From positions 1 through 34,973 of the forward strand of contig REGF01000004.1 in NCBI GenBank assembly GCA_003702465.1: 34,973 nucleotides of DNA. The letters run 5' to 3'. Both the position numbers and the translations under genes were made by a program. Position 1 is the stretch's first letter, and each line of letters begins with the position of its first letter. The notes under the pieces were generated by a model. The model saw only the letters and a list, made by a program, of their open reading frames with translations, was not told the DNA's origin and did not search any database. The DNA is from Candidatus Nitrosomarinus sp. (lineage in GTDB: Archaea; Thermoproteota; Nitrososphaeria; Nitrososphaerales; Nitrosopumilaceae). Below are positions 5,009 to 9,586 of the stretch, in pieces.

Positions 5009-6574
5009 CTATTCGTTTACGTATGCTCTTTCGCCATGTTGTGCCAAATCGAGACCAATCTCCTCTTCTTTTGGAGTTACTCTGATTCCGCCTGGCCATA
5101 CTGCGTCCATTACCTTTAGGATTACAATGGTTACACCAAATGCATATCCAATTGAGATAACTGCTGCTGCAATACTGATTGCTTGGGTCTCCATTCCTTC
5201 TGGAGTTCCAGTCCATGCACCAATACCGTCTCCGGTATCCCAGATGTGTGGACTTGCTAATGTACCTGTCAAAATTGCACCTGTAAGACCACCCATTCCG
5301 TGTATTCCCCATACATCTAATGCATCGTCCCATTTGCGTGCGTTCTTGAATGCTACACAAGCATAACAAACTGTACCAGCGGCAATTCCCATAATAATTG
5401 CAGCCATTGGACCTACCCAACCTGAAGCTGGAGTGATTGTTACCAATCCTGCTACTGCACCTGATGCTGCACCAACAATACTTGGTTTTCCTGTATGTGC
5501 CCATGACATCAAGACCCAAGTAACTGCGGCCATACCAGTTGCGGTATTAGTTACAGTCCATGCGCTGACGGTAATGCCGTCTACCATTGCTTCACTACCT
5601 GCGTTAAAGCCGAACCAACCGAACCAGAGGAGACTTGTACCAAGTACTACCATTGGAATGTTGTGTGGCTCCATTGGAACTTTGCCATATCCAAGTCTTC
5701 TGCCAAGGACTAAGGCTCCGGCCAATGCTGCAAATCCTGAAGAAATGTGTACTACAGTACCACCAGCAAAGTCTAATGCATGTGATGGCGATAGGTCTGG
5801 ATCAAAGTCTAATCCACCTCCTCCTATGAAACCGCCTCCCCAGACCCAGTGTGCTATTGGATCATAAACGAAGGTTCCCCATAAGAGTACGAATATCATC
5901 AATGCGCTGAATTTGATTCTGTCAATCAAACCACCAATAATTAGAATTGGTGTGATGATGGCAAATGTTCCTTGGAACATTGCAAACATTTGGTGAGGAA
6001 TAGTTCCAGGCCAGCCTTGACTACAATAGTCGCCATCCTTAAACTCCTGCATCTGGTAAGCATTTGACCATGTATCTGCACAAGGACCCACTTCACCTAA
6101 TGGTGCATAGTGAGAAACCATGTTAAATCCTGCATAGTCTAGACTTCCCATGTACATGTTTGCGCCTTCATCGGCATTTGGTGCAAATGCTAGTGAGTAA
6201 CCCCATAGTACCCATTGAACTGACATGAGTCCCATAACAATGAGAGTCATACCAAGAACGTTGACGATGTTCTTTGATCTGGCTAAACCGCCATAAAAGA
6301 AACCGACTCCAGGTGACATAAGAAGTACTAATGATGTTGCGGTAAGCATCCATGCTGTATCACCAGTGTCTATAAGACATGGTAGATATCCACCGTCGCC
6401 ATCATCGTACCAGCATTCGTTAGGGTTACCAGTGTAAATTCCACTAGTTCCCTTAACATATCCGTCCATACCATCATCAACACTTTGTGCATATGCTGTT
6501 GACATAGCACCAGTTGCTGTGATTGATACTGCGGCTACAAGTAATAGAGCATACTTGTAGTTTCTAGAATTCAT
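5009..6574 (-). CDS. amt: Ammonium transporter Amt
   Basis: Membrane channel/transporter for ammonium, the energy substrate of ammonia-oxidizing archaea. The 521-residue protein starts with a signal-peptide-like segment (LLLVAAVSITATGAMSTAYAQ), followed by eleven or so hydrophobic segments. The Amt twin-histidine pair is present: His276 in GGTVVHISSGFAAL and His425 in WGIHGMGGLTGAIL. The motif FFYGGLARSKN is also typical. The gene is visibly more GC-rich than its neighbours, which suggests codon bias for high expression. Transcribed alone, with a TATA-like box 27 nt before the ATG and a T-tract terminator after the stop. The ORFs listed inside it on the plus strand are shadows. Cultured marine relatives carry two Amt genes; which one this is cannot be told from the window. 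Confidence 0.98.
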   Translation of the reverse strand: MNSRNYKYALLLVAAVSITATGAMSTAYAQSVDDGMDGYVKGTSGIYTGNPNECWYDDGDGGYLPCLIDTGDTAWMLTATSLVLLMSPGVGFFYGGLARSKNIVNVLGMTLIVMGLMSVQWVLWGYSLAFAPNADEGANMYMGSLDYAGFNMVSHYAPLGEVGPCADTWSNAYQMQEFKDGDYCSQGWPGTIPHQMFAMFQGTFAIITPILIIGGLIDRIKFSALMIFVLLWGTFVYDPIAHWVWGGGFIGGGGLDFDPDLSPSHALDFAGGTVVHISSGFAALAGALVLGRRLGYGKVPMEPHNIPMVVLGTSLLWFGWFGFNAGSEAMVDGITVSAWTVTNTATGMAAVTWVLMSWAHTGKPSIVGAASGAVAGLVTITPASGWVGPMAAIIMGIAAGTVCYACVAFKNARKWDDALDVWGIHGMGGLTGAILTGTLASPHIWDTGDGIGAWTGTPEGMETQAISIAAAVISIGYAFGVTIVILKVMDAVWPGGIRVTPKEEEIGLDLAQHGERAYVNE

Positions 6575-8742: not shown

Positions 8743-9399
8743 ATGATGGGAGATCGAGATTATAGGTCAACTATTAAAAATGCACTTGATTCAATCGGAA
8801 CAGAACTAGAATTAAACATTGATTCAAAAAATTTTCAAACTATTCATTTACAAGAAGTAGTTCAATGTTTAAGACGTTCATATTATGACAGAATTGACTC
8901 TATAGAAATAGAAAGAAGAGGTTTCAATGAACTTCTCTCAGGATTATTAAGAAAATTACAATACGGAAGTGAACCAAAAGAATTTGAAATTGAAGATATC
9001 AAACTAAAAGGACAAACAGACATGCTTGTTGACGATATTGTCTTATTATTCAGATCAGCATCTAAAGAATTAGAAAATCCACTTGCAAACGATGTCCTAT
9101 ATCTTAATGCATGTTTATGGATATATGATAAACACGAGGGAATGATTGTTTATATCAGTGGGGATAGAAAAGAGACAACGTTTTCTGTTACACGAAATAA
9201 GAAAATGTTTGAAGAAGTGATCCGAAGAGTAAGAGTACTAAACAATCTTCTCAAAGAACAAAAAGCACCAATTTTAGAACCATCAACAGAATGTACTGAT
9301 TGTCAATATTTTGAAAGATGTTTTATGAAAAAGAAGAATAGTAAACAGATCGACATTGGAGAAATGTTAGGTTTAGGAAAATTCGGCAGCAAAGATTAG
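8743..9399 (+). CDS. Cas4/RecB-like Fe-S protein with altered nuclease motif
   Basis: 218 residues with the layout of the Cas4/PD-(D/E)XK Fe-S family. One N-terminal cysteine (Cys42 in VQCLRRSYYDR) and three C-terminal ones (Cys184, Cys187, Cys193 in CTDCQYFERC) match the four ligands of the Cas4/AddB-type [4Fe-4S] cluster. Asp93 in GQTDMLVDD fits the first catalytic acid, but where the E-x-K pair should follow (about residues 101-104) the sequence reads VLLFRSASK, so the Glu is missing and Lys is replaced by Arg or displaced. It may be a DNA-binding protein without nuclease activity. No CRISPR array or cas gene is nearby. It is third after atpC and the small membrane protein. The start could be either of two adjacent Met codons; GAGGT lies about 9 nt upstream. 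Confidence 0.8.
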   Translation: MMGDRDYRSTIKNALDSIGTELELNIDSKNFQTIHLQEVVQCLRRSYYDRIDSIEIERRGFNELLSGLLRKLQYGSEPKEFEIEDIKLKGQTDMLVDDIVLLFRSASKELENPLANDVLYLNACLWIYDKHEGMIVYISGDRKETTFSVTRNKKMFEEVIRRVRVLNNLLKEQKAPILEPSTECTDCQYFERCFMKKKNSKQIDIGEMLGLGKFGSKD

Positions 9400-9419: not shown

Positions 9420-9443
9420 GCAAAGGAAAATTCCTTTGTTGGA
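9420..9443. terminator. Bidirectional hairpin between convergent genes
   Basis: CAAAGGAA-AA-TTCCTTTG is an 8-bp inverted repeat between the convergent Cas4-like gene and the 36-aa ORF. T-rich sequence (ATATTTTTAATTTCTTT) follows on the minus strand. It probably ends the microprotein transcript and could act in both directions. Confidence 0.55.
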
Positions 9444-9554
9444 TTAATCTAGTGGTTCAGGGTGTCCTTTACCACGAAGAGCGAAACACACTACTGCTAG
9501 TGCGATTGCTACACCTGCTGCGGCGCCATAAGCTGCCATACTTGCTTCTGCCAT
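9444..9554 (-). CDS. 36-aa single-helix membrane microprotein
   Basis: Too short for the ORF track; translated by hand from ATG 9554 to TAA 9444. The N-terminal MAEASMAAYG leads into a single hydrophobic Ala/Val-rich helix (about residues 8-26), then a basic-polar tail (RGKGHPEPLD) that should stay in the cytoplasm. Evidence for a real gene: a canonical TATA box (CTATAAAAGG) 27 nt upstream, giving a leaderless start; a hairpin just after the stop; and GC-rich codons unlike the surrounding AT-rich non-coding sequence but like amt. Function unknown. One-helix proteins of this size are often accessory subunits of membrane complexes. It is not ATPase subunit c: there is only one helix and no buried carboxylate. 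Confidence 0.75.
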   Translation of the reverse strand: MAEASMAAYGAAAGVAIALAVVCFALRGKGHPEPLD

Positions 9555-9576
9555 TTGATAAAAAATAACAATACGT

Positions 9577-9586
9577 CCTTTTATAG
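9577..9586 (-). promoter_or_regulatory. Strong TATA box for the 36-aa ORF
   Basis: Minus-strand CTATAAAAGG is the closest match to a consensus archaeal TATA box that I found in the window. Its centre is 27 nt before ATG 9554, predicting a leaderless, well-expressed transcript. Confidence 0.7.

Follow-up and report, generated by a model that had tools for sequence, protein, structure and literature searches.

A 36-residue membrane protein under purifying selection

The window analysed here, 34,973 nucleotides of a genome closely related to Nitrosopumilus, contains on its minus strand a frame of just 36 codons (9444..9554, with the ATG at 9554 and the stop codon TAA at 9444-9446) that poses two questions: is it a gene, and if so, with which partner does its product work? 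The encoded protein, MAEASMAAYGAAAGVAIALAVVCFALRGKGHPEPLD, has an N-terminal end, one transmembrane helix and a basic C-terminal tail (RGKGH), and most of its length is that one short helix, as seen both in an AlphaFold2 model (helix at residues 2-28, mean pLDDT 84) and in its hydropathy (best 19-residue Kyte-Doolittle mean of 2.23). A preliminary description of this DNA had proposed just such a 36-codon frame with a single membrane helix and a basic tail, had considered it unlikely as a random ORF, and had suggested conservation and Ka/Ks in close relatives as the check. All of these expectations are borne out: the microprotein is encoded in 35 of 37 same-genus genomes at 83-100% identity, the median dN/dS of the frame is 0.13, and chance is far exceeded. 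In an alignment of 30 genomes 24 of the 36 columns are invariant, G10 and G14 within the helix do not vary, and diversity lies at third rather than second codon positions (0.34 versus 0.05). The frame has evolved under strong purifying selection.

Only the small size of the ORF speaks for there being no translated gene at this position, only a chance frame or an RNA gene, but we give this reading practically no credence, as it is contradicted by the low dN/dS, the third-position variation and protein-level homologues in four families; the codon pattern refutes it. A genuine single-helix membrane microprotein is thus confirmed at 9444-9554. As a small hydrophobic membrane protein it recalls ATP-synthase subunit c/K, but the latter is a two-helix hairpin with a buried carboxylate, whereas the microprotein has one helix, its E3 is at an N-terminal position, and it matches no Pfam or NCBIfam family above the curated cut-off; that identity, which had already been discounted from the letters, is ruled out. 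The PDB contains no entry matching the microprotein, and also no archaeal AmoA entry.

Transcription signals

A TATA box, TATAAAAG, lies upstream of the gene at 9578..9585 (minus strand) and occurs only once on both strands of the 35-kb window. It had been described as lying 27 nt before the ATG, which is correct for the centre of the box (∼27 nt) and incorrect for its first T, which is 31 nt away; the 31-nt spacing is repeated in 76 distinct type-1 upstream regions of related copies. The position of the box implies a leaderless or nearly leaderless transcript, and from the TATA box we infer that the promoter may be strong and the microprotein highly expressed. The hairpin reported after the stop codon is present at 9421..9438 (minus strand) as CAAAGGAA-TT-TTCCTTTG, followed by a T-rich run; with a similar palindrome 3′ of the ORF in most same-genus copies, it is a probable terminator.

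DNA matches to this locus also occur elsewhere in its own genome. In L002 only the promoter region matches (L002:1501-1577, 79% over 77 bp), and downstream of this promoter-like segment is an 86-residue ORF with TGRGTG repeats (L002:1222-1482, minus strand); the match in L003 appears to lie inside a coding gene.

Distribution of the microprotein and of AmoA

A scan of named genomes turned up 150 relatives, spread over Nitrosopumilus, Nitrosarchaeum, Nitrosopelagicus, Cenarchaeum and others, and the microprotein is near-universal in the Nitrosopumilaceae. For diverged homologues we built stepwise profiles (A1, A2 and A3), and with these recovered copies, 35-68 residues long, from all the AmoA-positive families in the sample (f1, f2, f3 and f8), of which we take f1 to be Nitrosopumilaceae, f2 probably Nitrosocaldaceae, and f8 Nitrososphaeraceae. 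What the homologues share is M-A/S-E/D, a single helix, F, R and a basic tail. Weak matches inside long ORFs (such as L146 and L150, E ≥ 0.01) were dropped as chance once their frames were read. Two complete Nitrososphaera-like genomes (G290 and G268) have a copy in the same gene slot as in the window, with the Cas4-like gene on one side and the WHy-like, orf10269, pyrH and HD genes on the other, and in G292 the neighbours of the copy are window-like as far as pyrH; the divergent f8 sequences are therefore members of the same gene family, not look-alikes. The Cas4-like PD-(D/E)XK protein gene (8743..9399, plus strand; PF01930), which is convergent with the microprotein gene in the window, adjoins it in Nitrosopumilaceae, Nitrosocaldaceae-like and Nitrososphaera genomes alike. 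The microprotein gene itself shows that AOA genomes contain conserved small genes beyond the main protein-family libraries.

In a survey of 300 genomes of the order, AmoA and the microprotein are both present in 165, AmoA alone in 25, and the microprotein alone in 13 (Fisher test 6e-40, with relatedness ignored). Twelve of these 13 are from AOA families, and the other is a weak match (E 0.0019) that is the sole one in the non-AOA families of the order; a phylum control outside the order gave chance-level matches only (E ∼1e-3 or worse). Among the 25 AmoA-positive genomes without the microprotein, 18 belong to three f8 genera (g8, g44 and g59) that resemble Nitrosocosmicus and organisms related to it. 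Their lack of the gene could in principle reflect divergence past detection, the f8 copies being short and diverged. The Cas4-like gene was likewise not found in the genomes of these three groups that were tested, so that this neighbour gave no lead to an alternative g8 copy.

Because these AmoA-positive genomes are without the gene, the microprotein is not an obligatory subunit of AMO or of a respiratory complex. The suggestion that it is a small subunit of a membrane complex of either sort thus stands in so far as this is a single-helix membrane protein confined to AOA, and falls as regards an obligatory subunit. Oxidases often have tiny single-helix subunits, such as CydX, and the microprotein might be a small subunit of a respiratory complex, or some other membrane protein unrelated to ammonium. 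CcoM has the same length of 36 aa (PMC10433244). We nevertheless regard this as very improbable: the microprotein is missing in relatives without AmoA and in Nitrosocosmicus-like AOA, which respire too, and among the neighbours compared no linkage to respiratory genes is seen except for the ATP-synthase subunit C gene (vATP-synt_AC39) near the microprotein in the window.

Association with the long ammonium transporter

The Amts of AOA are of two types, a short one and a long one with a signal-like N-terminus and a Cys-containing extension. The Amt encoded in the window (5009..6574, minus strand; 521 aa; TIGR00836 amt) has the signal-like N-terminus and the short Cys-containing N-terminal extension that the short type lacks, and is the Amt-2-like transporter that we propose as the partner of the microprotein. 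Long Amts form one clade in the Amt tree (22/22, support 100/98). The g8, g44 and g59 genomes have the short Amt only, in agreement with the published finding that Nitrosocosmicus encodes Amt-1 and is missing the high-affinity Amt-2 (PMC11559005, PMC8692354), and for this reason we equate the long Amt with Amt-2. Co-absence of the microprotein and Amt-2 in this lineage is not specific, because Nitrosocosmicus is also without S-layer genes and the Cas4-like gene.

Across 31 genomes the long Amt and the microprotein occur together in 18, are both lacking in 11, and are discordant in two that have the microprotein alone; the transporter alone was never seen (Fisher test 9e-7, with relatedness ignored in a phylogenetically non-independent set picked to contrast microprotein-positive with microprotein-negative AOA). 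The Amt hypothesis arose after the first cases of linkage and the published Nitrosocosmicus gap, so in part the table tests an association that was suspected beforehand. The 11 double-negative genomes include one non-AOA control, two incomplete genomes (G387 and G391) and two of g29 (G178 and G154); for these two pairs the joint absence may come from missing neighbouring DNA, lost as one block in the g29 pair. The two exceptions are G038 (f3, 97% complete), in which the short Amt only was found, and G310, a MAG of 520 contigs in which no Amt was found.

Physical linkage of the two genes takes several forms. In g26, g28 and g29 the microprotein and the long Amt are divergently oriented, 92-186 bp separating their frames, in G260 the two are convergent and 83 bp apart, in G037 the distances are 509 and 855 bp, and in the remaining linked lineages they are 1.4-3.5 kb. 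For 62 named Nitrosopumilaceae-type loci, the Amt closest by is of the long type, on the same strand and 1.9-4.5 kb downstream; in the Nitrosopumilaceae this linkage is a single inherited gene block. Another 18 loci are without an amt match; 12 of them stop too early downstream, and the other six include at least two extra copies (L098 and L119) from a genome that also holds an amt-linked copy. Copies in Nitrososphaera-like genomes adjoin no Amt, one being directly after amoA and another by the Cas4-like gene, and the copy numbers of microprotein and Amt do not strictly match.

A further kind of evidence is the correspondence of subtypes. The long Amts split into subclades a, b and c, of which subclade b (support 100/100) joins members from f2, f8 (g20 and g57) and f1 (g26 and g29), and so cuts across the species families. 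The tail ERAYRYKR...GTYGFxYE is carried by microproteins of the subclade-b lineages and of g28, where the Amt shares 78% identity with the g29 subclade-b Amt. The microproteins of subclade-b genomes form one clade (97/100), with three label changes versus 18.4 when labels are shuffled, in a tree of 53 columns whose deep splits are weak; this match was spotted after the Amt hypothesis had been formed, and was then checked by the tree. Within a single genome, G037, both a subclade a and a subclade b Amt are present, and each is adjoined by the matching microprotein subtype.

Linkage to amo genes

The main alternative is that the microprotein is a facultative single-helix subunit of AMO whose function would resemble that of the short helix chains in bacterial AMO and pMMO, and which has been lost in Nitrosocosmicus-like AOA. 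Confinement to AmoA-positive families is what such a subunit would show, and in the Nitrososphaera-like G290 a 44-residue paralogue (L236:4532-4663, minus strand) directly follows amoA in the order amoX-amoA-microprotein; paralogues near amoA are also present in G292, G268 and G344. Linkage to amoABCX is seen in g51, g26 and g29; in the last two the copy is flanked by amt and the Cas4-like gene within an extended amo locus, the g29 order being amoC-amoB-amt-microprotein-Cas4-like-amoY-amoZ. Yet within these amo-linked arrangements the direct neighbour is amt, the genus of the window keeps the microprotein apart from amo, which in the window's own genome lies on another contig (C26), and the microprotein subtypes track the Amt subclades. 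The 18 AmoA-positive g8, g44 and g59 genomes are without the gene, and in G043 no microprotein-like ORF comes after amoA. A published complexome search for AMO subunits gave AmoX, AmoY and AmoZ, which co-migrate with AMO and are described as conserved in all AOA (PMC10030591). These too are small membrane proteins confined to AOA, with genes close by in some lineages, but they are 89-120 aa long in the window's genome (by our assignment, L252) and, unlike them, the 36-aa microprotein is missing in Nitrosocosmicus-like AOA. The bacterial AmoD helix chain (PDB 9leg chain E, 45 aa) is likewise short, and its profile match to the microprotein is non-significant (E = 0.61). On balance a facultative AMO subunit seems unlikely. 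The highest-expressed one-helix protein of that complexome study, NVIE_013530 (PMC10030591), was considered as the N. viennensis homologue and could not be confirmed; the three matches in G290, at 2.29, 2.34 and (weakly) 1.02 Mb, do not clearly fit its locus tag.

Linkage both to amt and to amo genes would also be expected of a scaffold helix in an ammonium-capture assembly that joins Amt-2, AMO and the S-layer or pseudo-periplasm. Amt-2 and S-layer genes are jointly missing in Nitrosocosmicus (PMC11559005), and native gels of N. cavascurensis have been reported to show Amt correlating with AmoA and AmoB (PMC10030591, Table 1). The f3 AOA, for their part, would need a separate explanation, and we consider such a scaffold improbable.

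A candidate subunit of Amt-2

The best-supported partner of the microprotein is the long ammonium transporter, and we put at roughly 60% the probability that it serves the long, high-affinity Amt-2 of AOA as a dedicated accessory subunit with a single helix. A connection to AMO is possible in light of the amoA-adjoining Nitrososphaera copy, which would be explained either by a facultative AMO helix or by a link between Amt-2 and AMO. As an accessory subunit of Amt-2, the helix would span the membrane with its N-terminal end, short and acidic, facing outwards and the RGKGHPEPLD tail reaching into the cytoplasm. Its small-residue face, with the invariant G10 and G14, could pack onto the outside or rim of the Amt trimer. 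Such a permanently bound helix might stabilise Amt-2, or tune its affinity or gating. More tentatively, and here we would place the odds somewhat below even, the Amt-2 of AOA may be a hetero-oligomer whose single-helix subunit, obligatory and matched to the lineage, escaped notice for its size. This subunit would be, to our knowledge, the first integral accessory subunit known for Amt/Mep/Rh transporters, and may also connect Amt-2 to AMO.

KdpF and CydX of E. coli are very small single-helix proteins that tune or stabilise a bigger membrane partner, and together with AcrZ they are the closest working parallels to the proposed role. AcrZ, of 49 aa, is a tiny single helix on the AcrB pump of E. 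coli that stabilises or tunes this larger membrane protein (PMC10710835). The likeness of the microprotein to all three is one of size and architecture, and it differs in that its putative partner is an Amt/Mep/Rh transporter. The closest biological parallel is sP36 of Methanosarcina mazei, a 61-aa protein that regulates AmtB1 with GlnK1, is without a transmembrane helix, and goes to the membrane upon ammonium upshift (PMC10714827). It would share with the microprotein the role of an archaeal small protein on an ammonium transporter; the microprotein differs in being a predicted membrane helix and in its restriction to AOA. Amt-2 and the S-layer are the suspects for the ammonium affinities of AOA, and a near-universal protein tied to Amt-2 adds a testable component. 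If it is indeed a subunit of Amt-2, expression and structural work on Amt-2 alone would miss a subunit.

Additional copies

Viral copies are known for amoC, and no microprotein copies were found on viral contigs with search patterns from Nitrosopumilus-type sequences. Cellular genomes may hold several: the Nitrosopumilus genome G022 (OX638319) has four clear copies (L034, L035, L036 and L037), three of which are not at the usual locus. The second copy in G036 (L040:2559-2732, plus strand) has a His/Asp-rich tail, GHSDGTHNHDYDKITTDDAHVHQE, that looks metal-binding.
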